A stretch of DNA of 27,452 nucleotides from a virus, in the IMG/VR virus record IMGVR_UViG_3300046660_000373, positions 1-27,452 of that record. The stretch is one strand, 5' to 3'. Shown here in pieces: positions 10,060 to 27,312 of this stretch. A program made the position numbers and the translations under genes. The notes under the pieces are model-generated. The model was not told where the DNA came from. It ran no database searches and saw nothing but the letters and a program-made list of their open reading frames with translations. Position 1 is the first letter of the stretch, and each line of letters starts with the position of its first letter.

Positions 10060-10235
10060 GTAACTTTAAGAGAATTCAGGAAGCACTCATCGAGTCTATG
10101 AATGCACGCCACATCGAAAGCATAAAGCGGGCCATCGACAACGGCTATTTCAAGCCGATCTCAAAGCCGCTAACGCCGGAAGACGCTCGGCGCTTGGTTG
10201 ATACGGCTTTGGAGGGTCTCCATGCCTCTTTATGA
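10056..10235 (+). CDS. 59-residue conserved-looking small protein
   Basis: A short gene using GTG at 10056, which overlaps the portal stop as GTGA, with the purine-rich GACGGAAGAGG just upstream. It ends at the TGA at 10233-10235, 14 bases into the next gene. The protein begins MSNFKRIQEALIESMNARHI and contains IKRAIDNGYF, then PLTPEDARRLVDTALEGL. It is helical, basic at the start and has no membrane segment. The perfect coupling at both ends and a sensible amino acid composition argue for a real gene. It could be a portal-associated assembly factor; no family is recognised. Confidence 0.7.
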   Translation: MSNFKRIQEALIESMNARHIESIKRAIDNGYFKPISKPLTPEDARRLVDTALEGLHASL

Positions 10236-10668
10236 ATTCGAGTGCCGCCACGGCCACGTGCTGGAGATCCTGCGAGACATTTCGGAGTGCTCTGCCCCCG
10301 CGTCATGCCACTGCGGCGAACTAGCGTTGCGCATTCTTTCGCCCACCATCGGCTACGTGCAGCGCGAATGCCGCTACGACAGCCCGATCGACGGCCGCCC
10401 GATCAGCAGTTACGCCGAGCGCAGGGAAGACCTCGCGCGCAACCACTGCCAGGAGTACGACCCTGAGATGAAGAAGGACGCCGCACGGTACAGGGAGCGC
10501 GAGCAGGCGAAGCTGGAATTAGCGGTGGACGAGTCAGTCGAACGCGCCGTCATGAGCATGGACGGAACGAAGCGCGAGAAGTTAGCGGCGGAATTGCAGG
10601 GCGGCGCTGAGGCGACGCCGGTGAGAGAGAGTGTTCCCAAAGCAACCATTACGAGGATCAGCAAATGA
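10222..10668 (+). CDS. FmdB-like zinc-ribbon phage protein
   Basis: A 148-residue protein. The N-terminus MPLYEFECRHGHVLEIL and the CHCGELALRIL segment resemble the FmdB putative regulatory zinc ribbon, whose usual pattern is YEYxCxxCG then CPxCG. Here the first pair is C-x-H (ECRHGH) rather than C-x2-C, and the second is CHC, so metal binding may be altered. The rest is helical and charged (YAERREDLARNHCQEYDPEM and following), typical of versions found between portal and scaffold genes in podoviruses. ATG 10222 is chosen because GGAGGG at 10211-10216 precedes it; upstream in-frame starts lack this. Its role in virion assembly is unknown. Confidence 0.8.
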   Translation: MPLYEFECRHGHVLEILRDISECSAPASCHCGELALRILSPTIGYVQRECRYDSPIDGRPISSYAERREDLARNHCQEYDPEMKKDAARYREREQAKLELAVDESVERAVMSMDGTKREKLAAELQGGAEATPVRESVPKATITRISK

Positions 10669-21267: not shown

Positions 21268-21888
21268 ATGGCCTTCTCAGGCGGTGTCTTCTCGAAACTT
21301 TACTCTTGGGTCACGGAGCAGGCCAGTCCTCCCATCGAAATCAGCAAACTAGACGCTCAGGAGGCCGATATTGCCGCCGGGCTGTCCAACTGCATCCTGC
21401 GCGACGGCACTGGCTTGCCCACGGCGGCGATCGACTTCAACGGCCAGAAGATCACGAATTTAGGCACCGCGGCGGCCGGTGGCGATGCCCTATCACGCAC
21501 GGCTGGCGATGCGCGGTATGTGCTGAGCTCGGTTGCTGGCGCGGTGATCTCAGGCACGTACACGCCGACGCTGACGCACACCTCGAACATCGCTTCGAGC
21601 ACGCCAGCGGTCATTCAATACATGCGAGTCGGCAACGTAGTCACGGTCAGCGGCAGCGCTGGCGTCCAGTGCACGAGCGGTGTCGGCGTGGCGACAACGC
21701 TTGGCGTCAGCCTGCCGGTCGCATCGGATCTGGCCGCATTTAACCAGTTGGGCGGGGCAGGGGCGCACAACAGTTCGCCCGTAAGCATCTTGGGGAACGC
21801 CTCATCAAACGTGGCGGCGCTGACCTGGTTCTCATCGACGGTTGGCCTGACCTCCGTCACGTTCAGCTTCTCCTACCTGGTTGTGTAA
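21268..21888 (+). CDS. Tail fibre-type protein with virion-attachment N-terminus
   Basis: A 206-residue protein. ATG 21268 is chosen because CGGAG precedes it by 8 bases and MAFSGGVFSKLYSWV is the usual beginning of this family; the frame is open from 21205, inside the previous gene. Residues 1-90 follow the common phage attachment pattern: ISKLDAQEADIAAGLSNCIL, TAAIDFNGQKITNLGTAAAG, then DALSRTAGDARYV. The rest (about 95-206) is a beta domain starting GTYTPTLTHTSNIASSTPAV, with MRVGNVVTVSG, as in many receptor-binding tips. It is joined to the spike gene by TAATG, suggesting the two act together at the tail tip. Confidence 0.82.
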   Translation: MAFSGGVFSKLYSWVTEQASPPIEISKLDAQEADIAAGLSNCILRDGTGLPTAAIDFNGQKITNLGTAAAGGDALSRTAGDARYVLSSVAGAVISGTYTPTLTHTSNIASSTPAVIQYMRVGNVVTVSGSAGVQCTSGVGVATTLGVSLPVASDLAAFNQLGGAGAHNSSPVSILGNASSNVAALTWFSSTVGLTSVTFSFSYLVV

Positions 21889-23774
21889 TGGCCACCTCAG
21901 TTGCCGTACTTCGCGACCACTTAGACGCAACGCTTAAGTCCCGCATCAAGGACTCTGACGGCGTTGTCTCTAACTACATCGCGATCTACAACAACTGGAC
22001 GAAGATCACCGACGCTGAAGTGACCGCTGGTGTCACGGTAGTCGACTTCGCCTACCCGCCGGGCTACATCAACCGCTACGGCACGAATGACCTGGATAAC
22101 CCGGGCACGACCGACATGACGTTGGCGATTCAGGCCGCCTTCGATCAGCGCGCAGCGGGCGGCGCCGATCCGTACGGCCTCAATCAGATTTACCGCACGA
22201 CAGATTCGATAGTCAAAGACCCGCTCGTCAAAGACATGCATTTCCACTGCGAGCGCGGCGCGATCATGCAGTGCGACCACCTCTCGCATGGGCTGATCTG
22301 GATCTGCCAGGACGAGAACTCGCCTAACAACAGTATCTCGCACTGGACTATCAACGGCCCCAATACGCATCTGCCAGCAGGCGGATATGTGCCGGTGTCG
22401 ACCGGGGCGGGAATCATGATGCACCGGAACGAGGCTCCGGGCACAGAGACCATCTTCGTCACGCAGTACAACGGTTTTCTTCAGGGCGTGACGATTCAAG
22501 GCTTCCTGTGGGGCCTGAACATGATGAACGTCATCGGCCTGCACGTTTACAACAGCTTCTTTCAGTTCAACCAGTACGGCATTCAATTCGACGGCGGGCA
22601 GACCAACGGCAACCACTTCGCCTGTACGCACATCCGCTACAACCGGCTGAGGGGCGTCAACTCCACTGGCCGCCTGGTGCCATCGGGCTTCAACGCCACG
22701 ATGAACACCTTCTACGGGTGTTTGTTCGAGTCGAACATTCCGTACCCGTTCGTCTCTGGTGGCACGCCGCCCACAGACTCAACGTCTGTCTACCTCAACA
22801 ACTCCTATGACTTCGTGTTCGTCGGCTGCTACGACGAGAACCACTACGCGTCCATCTACCTGACGAACAGCAGCAAGTATCACAAGTTCATTGCGCATCG
22901 CATCTCAGGCGGCGCTGGGCGAGAAGGGCGCATCATCCTCGACGGACCCGGGATCTACGACAACGAGTTCGATATCGAAGTCACCGCGCAGAACAATGCC
23001 GAGGTGTCGATAGAGTCGAACGACACGAACCAGCTGTACAACCGCTTCCGTGGCAGCGGGTTGAACTTCATCGGCTCGAGCATCCTGGCGAACCTCGATT
23101 ACAGCGACGTTCGGCCTTCGCTCAACTACTCGCCGTCGTTTGGCGTTGGGCTGATTCGCCTGCCCTCGCAGGGCTACCGCGAGAACGTTGCTGACGGCAC
23201 GAACCCCGGGCAGATCGACTCTATCGGCGGGTCTGCTGAGACGCTGAACATCACGGGCGTGGGCGAGCTGCGCATCGGCAACGGACTTACGGCAAATACC
23301 ACGGTGGCGACGATCTTGGGGGCGAAGCCGAATTCCTTCATCAAGATCCACAATAACCAGTCAGCGTTCTCGTTCTTCCTGATCTCCGACAACTCGAACA
23401 TCGTGCTGCTGAACAAGCGCTCGGTGACGCTGAACAAGGTCGGACAGGAACTTGTGCTGTGGGTCAATGGCGACCTGATCATCACCGAGTCGGGGAGGAA
23501 CTTCTCTTCTCAGGTTGTCGGCAGCGGCACTATTACCGGTGGCGCTACGACGCAGGCTGTGACGTTCGCGGGGCTGGGGTTATTCAACGAGCCGAACACC
23601 TCGTACAAGGTATCGGCGTGGGTTGAGTCGATCACGGGCGCGCCAGCGGCGGGCTCGTTCACGGCCTACGCGACGGCAATCGCCACCACTGGCTTCACGC
23701 TGAACGTACCCGTCGCCCCCGGCGTCGGCGCGTCAGTCACCTTCGGCTTTGAAGCCATACGGCTGGACAGCTGA
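21888..23774 (+). CDS. Tailspike with pectate-lyase-like beta-helix
   Basis: A 628-residue probable polysaccharide-degrading or binding spike. After a 45-residue helical start, YGTNDLDNPGTTDMTLAIQA (residues 64-83) matches the beginning of phage right-handed beta-helix spikes. The following 400 residues show repeated short strands with Asn/Gly turns, for example NMMNVIGLHVYNSFFQFNQY and YDNEFDIEVTAQNNAEVSIE. A separate C-terminal beta-sandwich starts near 525. No catalytic pair can be named by eye. It starts at TAATG after the fibre-type gene and ends 8 bases before the stop of the convergent methyltransferase. It probably decides host range through O-antigen or capsule. Confidence 0.85.
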   Translation: MATSVAVLRDHLDATLKSRIKDSDGVVSNYIAIYNNWTKITDAEVTAGVTVVDFAYPPGYINRYGTNDLDNPGTTDMTLAIQAAFDQRAAGGADPYGLNQIYRTTDSIVKDPLVKDMHFHCERGAIMQCDHLSHGLIWICQDENSPNNSISHWTINGPNTHLPAGGYVPVSTGAGIMMHRNEAPGTETIFVTQYNGFLQGVTIQGFLWGLNMMNVIGLHVYNSFFQFNQYGIQFDGGQTNGNHFACTHIRYNRLRGVNSTGRLVPSGFNATMNTFYGCLFESNIPYPFVSGGTPPTDSTSVYLNNSYDFVFVGCYDENHYASIYLTNSSKYHKFIAHRISGGAGREGRIILDGPGIYDNEFDIEVTAQNNAEVSIESNDTNQLYNRFRGSGLNFIGSSILANLDYSDVRPSLNYSPSFGVGLIRLPSQGYRENVADGTNPGQIDSIGGSAETLNITGVGELRIGNGLTANTTVATILGAKPNSFIKIHNNQSAFSFFLISDNSNIVLLNKRSVTLNKVGQELVLWVNGDLIITESGRNFSSQVVGSGTITGGATTQAVTFAGLGLFNEPNTSYKVSAWVESITGAPAAGSFTAYATAIATTGFTLNVPVAPGVGASVTFGFEAIRLDS

Positions 23775-23782
23775 TGGCTACG

Positions 23783-24505
23783 CTATCGCTTAGTCAGAAG
23801 GAAGCTCGCCCACGTCGGCGTTTGCGCGGCGATGGTGGTGTTGAAGTACGGCGCGAAGGCGGCGAGGAAATCGGCCTTGCGCTTCCTGTTCGGCAGTCCG
23901 CGGTTCGATCCCATCCAGCGCCATACGGTCTCAGGCACGGACAGGAACTCATCGCCATCGAGCAGCCCGTGGTTCGAGAAGTCGACGTTGTGAACGGCAA
24001 CGCCGCCGGGTCGGAGCATCTTCGCGGTGGCCTTGGTGAACGCATCGATGCAAGTGACGTGCTCACCCACGGCTTGCGATATCACGAGGTCGAAGGCGTC
24101 GGTGGGCAGGGCGGCCACGTTTTCGATGGCGGCTGGGATGGCGTGCACTGCGCGTATATCGGCGTCGGTTGGCCTAGCTTCTCGCACAGCGGCGTACCAC
24201 GCCTGCGCGTCGGGGCCGAAGTAATCACCGGGGAAACGGTCGACCACGGTGTACGACTTAGCGCCTGCGCCGAGCAGCACAAGCCCGGTCGCCAGGTGAT
24301 CGCCGGGCCCGATCTCGCACACGTCGGCACCGCTCACGCGAGCGGCTATAGCGGGGTTGTCGTCAACGATCCCGAAGGCGAAGCGCCGCAGGTTCGCCTC
24401 AGTCGGCGGCAGGCTGGTGCGGCCAGCGGCGATACGGCGTTTGGCGATCGACGGGACGCCCATCAGCAGGTTGGCCGCGATCTCTCTCGCGATTCTTATG
24501 ACCAT
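23783..24505 (-). CDS. Class I SAM-dependent methyltransferase
   Basis: A 240-residue enzyme on the minus strand, the only one in the window. Motif I VCEIGPGD is at residues 62-69, the acidic end of strand 2 VVDRF at 87-91 (Asp89), motif IV-like FDLVISQAVGEHV at 138-150 and LRPGG at 164-168: the full order for a Rossmann methyltransferase. The N-terminal helix is basic and hydrophobic but not a clear signal. The acceptor is unknown; similar enzymes occur in surface-polysaccharide clusters, so modification of host sugars is possible. It is divergent from the next gene with 17 bases between starts, and late transcripts would run antisense through it. No strong ribosome binding site or promoter is seen; GATAAT lies just upstream. 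Confidence 0.88.
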   Translation of the reverse strand: MVIRIAREIAANLLMGVPSIAKRRIAAGRTSLPPTEANLRRFAFGIVDDNPAIAARVSGADVCEIGPGDHLATGLVLLGAGAKSYTVVDRFPGDYFGPDAQAWYAAVREARPTDADIRAVHAIPAAIENVAALPTDAFDLVISQAVGEHVTCIDAFTKATAKMLRPGGVAVHNVDFSNHGLLDGDEFLSVPETVWRWMGSNRGLPNRKRKADFLAAFAPYFNTTIAAQTPTWASFLLTKR

Positions 24506-25114: not shown

Positions 25115-25245
25115 CCCATACCGCAAGCCACGTAATCATCAATCTCGCCACGCCGGTCGAAGTCGCCAAGGTCAAGACACGCGGCGGCATCGCTGGCGCT
25201 GTGCTCGTACTCGTTGGCGTGCTGATCGGGGCGTTGTTCTTTTAA
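25111..25245 (+). CDS. 44-residue membrane miniprotein
   Basis: A very short gene with an excellent ribosome binding site (GAAGGAGAGTCGAAATG) and overlaps on both sides (ATGA before, TAATG after). The protein has a polar start ([20 protein letters not shown]) and ends in a membrane segment (about 25-44, [19 protein letters not shown]). One hydrophobic helix at the extreme C-terminus and a basic pair before it suggest a tail-anchored peptide. Holin-type, antiholin or superinfection roles are all possible. It is easily missed because of its length. Confidence 0.72.
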
Positions 25246-25472
25246 TGCCCACCTGGCTTCAAATCCTGCTGGCCATCACATCCATCGTGGGGCCTGCAAT
25301 CGCCGGTTACTTCGGCGCCCAACGCGGCATGGCCGTAGGGCTCGCCGTACATGCGGAGAAGATCGCGAACCTAGAGCGCGAAGTGCTGGTGCTGCGAAAT
25401 GCGAAGCACGATCACGCGAGTTTTCTCACGAGGCATGAGATGGATATTGAAGTGTTGAAGAGGAAGGTATGA
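25245..25472 (+). CDS. Small membrane protein with coiled-coil tail
   Basis: A 75-residue protein starting at the ATG that overlaps the previous stop as TAATG; the frame is open further upstream but this start fits coupling and topology. It has a membrane segment at about 5-24 ([20 protein letters not shown]) and a helix at 35-75 ([20 protein letters not shown]) with heptad-like Leu/Val/Ile. Such proteins are common beside phage endolysins and are often annotated as holin or lysis accessory. It is joined to the DUF5675-like gene by ATGA. Confidence 0.72.
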
Positions 25473-25927
25473 AGCTCGTCCTCCGCCGCGACTACCGCGC
25501 AGATGACTGCACTCTCGGCGTTCTGTCGTTTTCAACGGCTGCCGAAGACTACGTTGCTCAGACCATGGAGCGTCCGTGGATACCGATGCCAGGATCGCGC
25601 GGCGGGCTGTCAGGCAAGTCGTGCATGCCTGAGGGCGTGTACCGTCTCGAGCGACACAGCAGCGAGGCGCACCCGAACACGTGGGCGCTGGTGAATCCGG
25701 ATCTCGATGTCGTGCACTACGAACCGCGCGACGATCGCAACAAGCGCTGCCTAGTGCTGATTCACGTAGCTAACTACGCGCGCGAGCTCCGCGGTTGCAT
25801 AGCGCCGGGCTTTGGACGCACGGTCGACGATCAGGGCGTGCACATGGTCACTAGTTCCAAGCGCGCCATGATCGAACTAAAGCGGCTGCTTCCTTGGAAT
25901 GATGAACACACTTTGGAGATCAGATGA
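25469..25927 (+). CDS. DUF5675-like protein, candidate endolysin
   Basis: A 152-residue protein whose layout I recognise as DUF5675: an early strand with [38 protein letters not shown] at 36-55, then [11 protein letters not shown] and a conserved core, [18 protein letters not shown], at 97-114. His99 and Gly109-Cys110 recall the H...GC signature of L,D-transpeptidase-fold enzymes, though the spacing is not canonical. No signal peptide or membrane segment is present. It is embedded between membrane proteins and a holin-like gene, and no lysozyme, amidase or peptidase is otherwise found here. A wall-degrading role is therefore a reasonable inference. Confidence 0.68.
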
Positions 25928-26118
25928 AATTCCTCTCCCGCAAATTCCTTCTCGCCGCGCTGTTCACGGTCACCGGGTGCGGCGTCTTCGCCTTCACCGG
26001 CAAGCTCACTGGCGGCGAGTTCATCACGCTGGTCGGAATCATCATGGGCGTGTTCACGGCCGGTGACACCGCCATCAACGCCATTCACAAACGTAATAGC
26101 GAGGATCAATCGAAATGA
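25924..26118 (+). CDS. Holin-like protein, two membrane segments
   Basis: A 64-residue protein with two predicted membrane helices (about 8-25, FLLAALFTVTGCGVFAFT, and 31-47, GEFITLVGIIMGVFTAG), a short KLTGG turn and a charged tail (HKRNSEDQSK). Size and topology fit a class II-type holin that times lysis. The VTGC at 16-19 resembles a lipobox, but the second membrane helix and this family's usual form favour a holin. It is coupled to the DUF5675-like gene (ATGA) and the next gene (ATGA). Confidence 0.72.
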   Translation: MKFLSRKFLLAALFTVTGCGVFAFTGKLTGGEFITLVGIIMGVFTAGDTAINAIHKRNSEDQSK

Positions 26119-26627
26119 AATACTTACTCATCCTTCTCGCCATCACTGCAACGCCAGCGCTCGCCCAACGCAATACGAACTGCGACGCTGCGACGCCGAA
26201 CAACGCCGCCTGCATCGAGTGGGCCATCGTCGCCACCGACACCAACGGCGCGGCGCTGACGGGCGCGAAGTACCGCGTCGAGCGCCGTCTTGGCACCGGC
26301 GGCACGTGGGGCACGGTCGCGACCGATCTCACCATCGGGAAGTACTACGCGCAGAACCTCGCGGCGGGGGAGCACTACTTCCGCGTGTTCGCATCGTGTG
26401 CCAGCACCGCAGCGTACCAGTGCGTGGAGTCGGCCTCGTCGAACGTCGCGAGCCGGTCAGCATCGGTGCCGGTGGTGCAGCCCAATGCGCCGGTAATCAT
26501 CATCGCGGCGACGATTCGGCCGGGGCAGCCGCCTACGTATCGCATCGTCTATACCGCGCGCCCGCGCGAGGGCGAGATCGTATTCGCCGTGCCTGAGGCG
26601 ATGCGGTCGGTGTACGCGGCGCGGTAA
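26115..26627 (+). CDS. Secreted protein with fibronectin-type-III-like fold
   Basis: A 170-residue protein with a clear signal peptide (MKYLLILLAITATPALA, cleavage before Gln18). The mature part has beta strands of an Fn3-like domain: CIEWAIVATDTNGAALTGAK, YRVERRLGTGGTW, AGEHYFRVFASC. Four Cys at 23, 33, 94 and 103 could form two disulfides in the periplasm. A Pro/Val linker (about 115-123) leads to a second strand set ending PEAMRSVYAAR. It sits between holin-like and HTH genes. An envelope role such as lysis aid or superinfection exclusion is speculative. Confidence 0.7.
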   Translation: MKYLLILLAITATPALAQRNTNCDAATPNNAACIEWAIVATDTNGAALTGAKYRVERRLGTGGTWGTVATDLTIGKYYAQNLAAGEHYFRVFASCASTAAYQCVESASSNVASRSASVPVVQPNAPVIIIAATIRPGQPPTYRIVYTARPREGEIVFAVPEAMRSVYAAR

Positions 26628-26629
26628 CC

Positions 26630-26827
26630 ATGACGCTCGCTGAGGAAATGCGCAGGCTTCGACAGGCGGTGCTAGAGCGCCGGCTGGAGGAAGCTGGCGG
26701 CAACATCAGCAAGGCCGCGCGGGCGGCCGGCATCAACCGCACGCACTTCTACGCGGTCATGCGCCGTACCGGCATCAAGCGGCCGGCGCCGGTTCACGGC
26801 AATGAGCAGTGGCGGGGGTTGCAGTGA
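26630..26827 (+). CDS. Fis-type helix-turn-helix protein
   Basis: A 65-residue protein. After a charged helix (AEEMRRLRQAVLERRLEEAG), GGNISKAARAAGINRTHFYA at 23-42 is the C-terminal helix-turn-helix of Fis and NtrC-type regulators, where this segment binds DNA. The ATPase and receiver domains of NtrC are absent. The start is ATG 26630, two bases after the previous stop. Its stop overlaps the Rz start as GTGA. It may regulate late genes or bind phage DNA; a freestanding domain of this kind inside a lysis cassette is uncommon. Confidence 0.75.
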   Translation: MTLAEEMRRLRQAVLERRLEEAGGNISKAARAAGINRTHFYAVMRRTGIKRPAPVHGNEQWRGLQ

Positions 26828-27312
26828 CCGCCGTCCTCGAATTCATCCACGCTAGGAAATGGCTGGTGGAACTGCTACTGCTCGCGGCCATCGTTGGCGC
26901 CGTCTGGTGGTTCTGCCATCACCTAATCGATGTGGGCGTGCAGCGCGAACGCGCGGCGTGGATGCTGAAAGTCGACGAGGCGAATCTCAAGGCGGCGGAG
27001 GCCAAGGGTCGCGCTGACGCCGCGGAAGCAGCTGGAAAGAAGGAACACGATGAACTTGCGAAATACGTTGCCGATCATCCTTTGCACGGTTCTCTTGCAA
27101 GCCTGTGCCGTAAGCCGTCCAGTGTGCCTGCCGCCACCACCAGCAACCCCGGCAATGCTCGAGCCAGCACCGGCCCCGCTGATGTTCAGCCGCTGCCTGA
27201 GGGAGATCCTGGCGGCGACGTTGGCGAGCCCGATCAGCTCGGAATGCTCAGCGCTCTTGCAGCCAGAGCCGATATTCTGAGCGGGTCATTGCGGGAGTGG
27301 CAGGCGCGGTAG
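26824..27312 (+). CDS. Rz: Inner-membrane spanin subunit (Rz-like)
   Basis: A 162-residue protein. GTG 26824 overlaps the previous stop as GTGA, with GGCGGGGG just upstream. It has an N-terminal membrane anchor (about 11-31, KWLVELLLLAAIVGAVWW), a periplasmic helix rich in Ala/Lys/Glu (35-80, VDEANLKAAEAKGRADAAEA) and the DELAKYVADHPLHGSLASLC stretch typical of Rz. The rest is Pro/Gly/Ser-rich. With Rz1 it would fuse inner and outer membranes in the last lysis step. Rz1 is completely nested in another frame, which supports the call. Confidence 0.85.
   Translation: MTAVLEFIHARKWLVELLLLAAIVGAVWWFCHHLIDVGVQRERAAWMLKVDEANLKAAEAKGRADAAEAAGKKEHDELAKYVADHPLHGSLASLCRKPSSVPAATTSNPGNARASTGPADVQPLPEGDPGGDVGEPDQLGMLSALAARADILSGSLREWQAR
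27050..27280 (+). CDS. Rz1: Outer-membrane spanin lipoprotein (Rz1-like), nested in Rz
   Basis: A 76-residue protein in the +1 frame, wholly inside the Rz gene. MNLRNTLPIILCTVLLQAC is a lipoprotein signal with lipobox LQAC; lipidation would be at Cys19. A Pro-rich stretch follows (VCLPPPPATPAMLEPAPAPL), as in known o-spanins. Nested placement, lipobox and proline content together make a strong case. Its short mature part would bind the C-terminus of Rz in the periplasm. Confidence 0.88.
   Translation: MNLRNTLPIILCTVLLQACAVSRPVCLPPPPATPAMLEPAPAPLMFSRCLREILAATLASPISSECSALLQPEPIF

Follow-up and report, generated by a model that had tools for sequence, protein, structure and literature searches.

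The lysis region of the phage DNA analyzed here raises the question of which gene product opens the wall of the host cell. The window, that is, the whole stretch of 27,452 bases that makes up the IMG/VR record, encodes small transmembrane (TM) proteins and an Rz/Rz1-like pair in this region, in agreement with the holin-like proteins and spanins described there in an earlier note. The same note had seen no recognizable lysozyme, amidase, or peptidase among them, and we found no lysozyme, amidase, M15 peptidase, or other wall enzyme across the entire record. The endolysins known to us are lysozymes, transglycosylases, amidases, or peptidases. As the likely endolysin, the note had proposed a DUF5675-like protein. 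Based on sequence, gene order, conservation, distant homology, and the absence of other enzymes in relatives, we consider it quite probable that this protein acts as the endolysin, being a small soluble cysteine amidohydrolase and distant kin of the DpaA/YafK branch of the YkuD enzymes.

The open reading frame (ORF) claimed for this protein is real, and its DUF5675 identity is borne out by a Pfam match to PF18925 with 66.5 bits (E = 2.4e-18; curated cutoff, 26.7). Among PHROGs, it belongs to phrog_1501, a family of unknown function. H99 and G109-C110 lie exactly where the note had located them. No TM segment or signal was predicted from hydropathy in the DUF5675 protein, so a holin would be required for it to reach the wall. 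The gene shares ATGA overlaps with both of its neighbors (25469-25472 and 25924-25927), an arrangement that matches coupled lysis operons. The adjacent holin is probably the 64-amino-acid (aa) protein with two TM segments, which weakly matches PHROG holins (phrog_20, E = 0.014; phrog_1350, E = 0.026) and resembles, by eye, a 59-aa ORF located after DUF5675 in Vibrio phage 13VV501A. An architecture similar to that of the 75-aa protein is found upstream of DUF5675 in Marinobacter PS6, a Microcystis phage, and VA-RY-3. The Rz1-like lipoprotein matched phrog_456 (Rz-like) with an E value of only 0.52. The features of the region are collected in Table 1.

Table 1. Features of the lysis region in the window (positions in bases, or residues where indicated)
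Feature	Position	Strand	Basis
DUF5675 protein, candidate endolysin	25469..25927	+	ATG start, 152 aa; PF18925 match
Proposed catalytic residues of the DUF5675 protein	H99, C110, with E34, N102, G109		Near-invariance in 73 members
Candidate holin, 64 aa, two predicted TM segments	25924..26118	+	ATGA overlap with DUF5675
Candidate holin or antiholin, 75 aa, N-terminal TM and probable coiled coil	25245..25472	+	Hydropathy
Bitopic TM protein of lysis region, 94 aa	24830..25114	+	Hydropathy; counterpart in G001
Bitopic TM protein of lysis region, 105 aa	24523..24840	+	Hydropathy; counterpart in G001
Secreted protein, 170 aa, signal-like N terminus	26115..26627	+	Same place in G001 and G002
Rz-like i-spanin, 161 aa	26827..27312	+	phrog_22892, Rz-like spanin, E = 0.0052; one TM
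Rz1-like o-spanin lipoprotein, out of phase within Rz	27050..27280	+	Signal and lipobox-like LLQAC

Several other genes of the window were recorded along the way. A signal-bearing protein, encoded after the holin candidate and before the spanins, is kept in all three related phages (window, 26115-26627; L087, 18129-18680; L003, 10560-11195) and had no family match; the counterparts of the 170-aa protein measure 184 aa in G001 and 211 aa in G002, the two relatives described below. The lysis cluster also contains a 65-aa Fis-type helix-turn-helix protein (26630-26827; HTH_8, E = 1.1e-5). A methyltransferase-domain gene on the minus strand (23783-24505; Methyltransf_11, E = 6.7e-6) lies antisense between the last large plus-strand ORF (21888-23774) and the lysis cluster, and a zinc-ribbon protein (10198-10668; Zn_ribbon_8, E = 6e-7) directly follows the portal gene.

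No end repeats were found in the window record, which is also shorter than its relatives; it may therefore be a fragment of a longer genome. A standard endolysin could then be encoded in the part missing from the 27 kb record, with DUF5675 being accessory in this phage. We regard this as very improbable, given what the relatives contain. The closest one, IMGVR_UViG_3300049382_000002 (G001), has a DUF5675 protein 83% identical to that of the window and comprises 36,995 bp. Its two ends bear an exact direct repeat of 127 bp, so this genome is apparently complete. An integrase and head genes like those of P22 are encoded in it, and its lysis cluster follows an order like that of the window, ending with an Rz-like ORF and an overlapping lipoprotein ORF that span the contig ends. 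When its 51 ORFs under 520 aa were compared with all of Pfam, just twelve families were matched, with no wall-enzyme candidate other than DUF5675 among these ORFs; of the four larger ORFs, one is a P22 portal and three had no Pfam match. A standard endolysin elsewhere in the genome, which the note had named as counterevidence, was looked for in this apparently complete relative and not found, leaving DUF5675 as its sole candidate wall hydrolase. The 33 kb relative G002 was likewise without a standard endolysin in the family profile tests.

We extended the search to all frames of 26 DUF5675-bearing records, composed of the window, 14 IMG/VR records, and 11 named phages. Phage_lysozyme (PF00959) matched none of the 26 and did match the positive controls Mu (E = 1.4e-39) and HP1 (E = 2.5e-30). 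Amidase_2, M15_4, and M15_3 were also absent from all 26 records, with host controls matched; GH19 and GH108 gave no match in these records or in any control and are hence uninformative on absence. M15_4 was absent, too, from the 136-kb Vibrio phage helene 12B3. For the lytic Vibrio phages Virtus and R21Y, which carry DUF5675, the main text of the respective papers holds no endolysin beyond general mentions.

A comparison of gene orders shows what DUF5675 replaces. Phage Mu has the order late activator C, endolysin gp22, Rz, gp24, DUF2730, gp26, TerS, and the endolysin function of gp22 has been shown experimentally (PMC9239132). Vibrio phages ZX4290 and martha 12B12 have the order late activator, DUF5675, small ORF, holin-like protein, Zn finger, DUF2730, TerS, with one small extra ORF in martha 12B12 relative to ZX4290. 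A second case is given by K139, where the tail tube gene is followed by a DksA-like zinc finger, a holin, and an endolysin (phrog_7, E = 1e-54), up to the tape measure gene, and by HP1, whose order of tube, hol, lys, and Rz is like that of K139. Vibrio phage PQ189350 has tail tube, zinc finger, DUF5675, and a 3TM protein, again up to the tape measure gene, and so do the IMG/VR prophages L016, L018, L024, and L027. Given these syntenic slots, at least two lineages of phages, the Mu-like and the K139/HP1-like, have DUF5675 where an unrelated endolysin would otherwise stand. The survey of such replacements that the note had suggested therefore agrees with its view that the protein sits where an endolysin should be, and the assignment as endolysin by position and exclusion draws on both this replacement and the status of DUF5675 as the only candidate wall enzyme in G001. 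DUF5675 genes outside an evident lysis cassette were seen in helene 12B3, L067, and L068.

The partner genes are of a similar kind across loci. When membership in a lysis cassette was tested, DUF5675 was found beside holin-like and spanin-like genes. GTA_holin_3TM directly follows DUF5675 in three phage groups (L018, E = 1.2e-13; L048, E = 8.7e-19; 1.122.A, E = 2.2e-8), and phrog_1544, of the 3TM family, lies beside it in Mu-like, HP1-like, siphoviral, and marine backbones. In 13VV501A, the gene order continues after DUF5675 with an Rz-like spanin (phrog_1152, E = 1.6e-13); for the Microcystis phage, the spanin match is weak. Counting non-redundant loci with a close same-strand neighbor, we found a TM-like (hydrophobic) neighbor at 43 of 67 DUF5675 loci versus 99 of 531 background ORFs (odds ratio, 7.8; Fisher P = 5e-14); the loci are related, which makes this P value too generous, and the excess is large.

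The His and Gly-Cys arrangement highlighted in the note proved nearly invariant in a non-redundant set of 73 members, some encoded by phages and others in the genomes of Pseudomonadota and Bacteroidota. E34 and G109 are present in all 73, and H99, N102, and C110 are each present in 72; the window protein carries all five. C52 is invariant among close relatives and dispensable in distant members. A single member, L096, lacks the His, which is replaced by Gln, and the same member is the only one to lack the Cys, replaced by Ser. Such a joint loss is expected if both residues work together. The L096 copy, encoded at 1227-1853 of a Flavobacteriales metagenome-assembled genome, is by its sequence likely a dead or repurposed enzyme.

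The note had further described this arrangement as reminiscent of L,D-transpeptidase-fold enzymes and had suggested a structural comparison with YkuD-type proteins. AlphaFold2 models of the window protein (pLDDT, 84.8; pTM, 0.81) and of a second member, L069 (pLDDT, 89.9; pTM, 0.85), were searched with Foldseek. The top PDB matches of the window model were both Tlde1a (7uo3: E = 0.029, probability 0.89, TM-score 0.40), an LD-carboxypeptidase whose LD-transpeptidase fold is altered (PMC9638812); the L069 model, though confident, matched no YkuD relative by fold. Among viral models (BFVD), the window model matched DUF5675 proteins as well as one phage protein that carries the annotation L,D-carboxypeptidase/transpeptidase (E = 8.4e-6, TM-score 0.65). 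The fold match is modest in the window protein and absent in the second member, and we take a YkuD-like fold of the family as no more than possible.

At the level of sequence, Tlde1_dom of Pfam gave weak matches in 5 of 25 DUF5675 members (best E value, 0.013), and none of the 25 matched PF03734 (YkuD) at E ≤ 5. The canonical YkuD motif HX14-17[S/T]HGC is not present either, since the spacing is H99-x10-C110 and no S/T-H precedes the GC. NCBIfam gave no useful match, and sequence matches in the PDB, for which the query was either the single protein or a profile of 25 members, were to a ryanodine receptor and a factor X EGF domain and were rejected as spurious. A profile of all 73 sequences, compared with 19 YkuD proteins, reached an E value of 0.0013, better than all 250 column shuffles. 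Against four short YkuD proteins, hhalign gave 1.8e-4, with 0 of 500 column shuffles as good; by BLAST, these four are DpaA homologues (E = 2e-9 to 2e-18). When Escherichia coli DpaA was added, its PEG-x-Y, IH, and GC motifs were superposed with those of DUF5675 (E = 6.5e-4). Against four E. coli LDTs only, just the His...Gly-Cys motif was aligned (E = 0.065); the comparison did not become significant until the alignment of 73 members was set against DpaA-like partners. DpaA, too, has few residues between His and Cys (H-x7-C), which departs from the canonical motif and places the H-x10-C of DUF5675 within the range of the YkuD superfamily. The resemblance seen in the note thus holds as a profile match to DpaA-like YkuD proteins, together with a modest fold match, and does not extend to the PF03734 model or the canonical motif.

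With a PDB fold match below a TM-score of 0.5 and no match for the L069 model, DUF5675 might also be no wall enzyme but a regulator of lysis or a protein acting on some other substrate, its likeness to YkuD being convergent. We give this explanation the least credence, as it has to accommodate near-invariant His, Asn, and Gly-Cys residues, a member in which His and Cys are lost together, a profile match that aligns the catalytic residues and beats 500 shuffles, and the replacement of endolysins at their own slot. The kinship with DpaA raises another alternative, in which DUF5675 would be an auxiliary wall enzyme, for example one that strips the outer membrane lipoprotein Lpp from the wall as DpaA does or one that weakens the wall by trimming stem peptides, and the true endolysin an unrecognized ORF. 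DpaA, the nearest recognizable type of YkuD relative, is a hydrolase that detaches Lpp and does not dissolve peptidoglycan (PMC10653827), and many ORFs in DUF5675 genomes are without known function. However, in the Mu- and K139-type cassettes it is the endolysin gene itself that DUF5675 replaces, the same second enzyme would have to escape detection in all 26 records, and DUF5675 is present in Bacteroidota genomes too, so that we consider an auxiliary role unlikely.

The usual job of YkuD enzymes is stem trimming or cross-linking, and we know of none that serves as a lytic endolysin; no experimental case of a phage YkuD endolysin was found in the literature searched. YkuD proteins with L,D-endopeptidase activity have been reported (PMC12729407). 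From the YkuD hydrolases, we infer the catalytic mechanism of DUF5675 as an endolysin, and the bond cut and the holin-dependent release are inferred as well. Without signal or anchor, the protein would build up folded in the cytoplasm until a holin, for which the 64-aa two-TM protein is the first candidate, passes it across the inner membrane. There, in a pocket shaped by N102 and E34, H99 would activate C110 for an attack on a stem peptide bond of the wall. The target would most likely be the bond from meso-DAP3 to D-Ala4 within a cross-link. Water would free the product from an acyl-enzyme on C110, the wall would fall apart, and disruption of the outer membrane by Rz/Rz1 would follow.

We see a slightly better than even chance that DUF5675 as a whole is a widespread, unrecognized class of endolysins, namely cysteine-dependent L,D-endopeptidases forming a new YkuD-related branch. 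Its users would then include podovirus-like, Mu-like, HP1-like, and siphoviral phages of Pseudomonadota, phage-like elements of Bacteroidota, a Microcystis phage, and even a microvirus. This would mean that a YkuD-type cysteine enzyme serves as the main lytic enzyme, a cross-linking fold turned to dissolving the wall, and it would account for host lysis by the many sequenced phages in which no endolysin is recognizable. Thiol-reactive agents should block such lysis, unlike that by lysozyme-type endolysins. The family would gain a role and testable residues, and annotation pipelines could fill a missing endolysin slot.

The family was found in ∼8% of the sampled Bacteroidota genomes (23/296) and 2% of the sampled Pseudomonadota genomes (8/398). 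In Bacteroidota (L112-L141), DUF5675 recurs in a module, where it is flanked by a protein of ∼250 aa (MARQKGIIKLKGTIGDITFYK...) on one side and a TM protein of 70 to 90 aa on the other. The 4.9-kb microvirus MH992181 has an unannotated DUF5675 gene between its major capsid and pilot genes (L005, 3009-3419), possibly its lysis gene; the 4.2- to 4.3-kb contigs L069 to L071 were rejected as microviruses because the neighboring genes look like those of tailed phages, leaving MH992181 as the only one. In Ralstonia phage RP31, a DUF5675 domain lies within a jumbo-phage protein of over 1,250 aa (BFVD A0A1L7N1E2), which could be a virion-associated wall enzyme.

Among known systems, the endolysins of Mu (gp22), HP1 (Lys), and K139 share the genomic slot and presumed role with DUF5675 but no sequence relation that we could find, those of Mu and HP1 being Phage_lysozyme proteins and those of K139 and HP1 belonging to phrog_7. 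The idea of a DUF5675 endolysin is not wholly new, as there is a precedent for one phage. In a 2022 study of Mu lysis, Martha 12B12 was the only one of 34 DUF2730-bearing Mu-like phages without a recognizable endolysin, and a soluble protein was suggested for this function by synteny and weak HHpred similarity to an L,D-transpeptidase (PMC9239132). We take this protein to be the DUF5675 gene product encoded in the same slot, that of Mu lys, and thus a member of the same family. That study concerns a single phage, without a test, the name DUF5675 does not occur in its relevant passages, and the window phage is podovirus-like, unlike the Mu-like Martha 12B12. What appears to be new in the literature searched is the family-wide scope, the DUF5675 name, the absence test in an apparently complete genome, the replacement at the K139/HP1 slot, and the connection to hydrolases like DpaA. 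Tlde1 has a similar catalytic spacing (10 for H121...C131 versus 11 for H99...C110 in DUF5675) but is a secreted antibacterial T6SS effector with an immunity protein and a capping subdomain, and its TM-score is only 0.40. E. coli DpaA/YafK, an amidase of the YkuD superfamily, differs in being a periplasmic host protein with a signal peptide that removes Lpp, whereas DUF5675 is smaller, phage encoded, and without a signal, the likeness being at the profile level only. In both, however, the PEG-x-Y and IH..GC motifs follow in the same order and the His-Cys spacing is short, and DpaA is a hydrolase rather than a transpeptidase, as DUF5675 would be.
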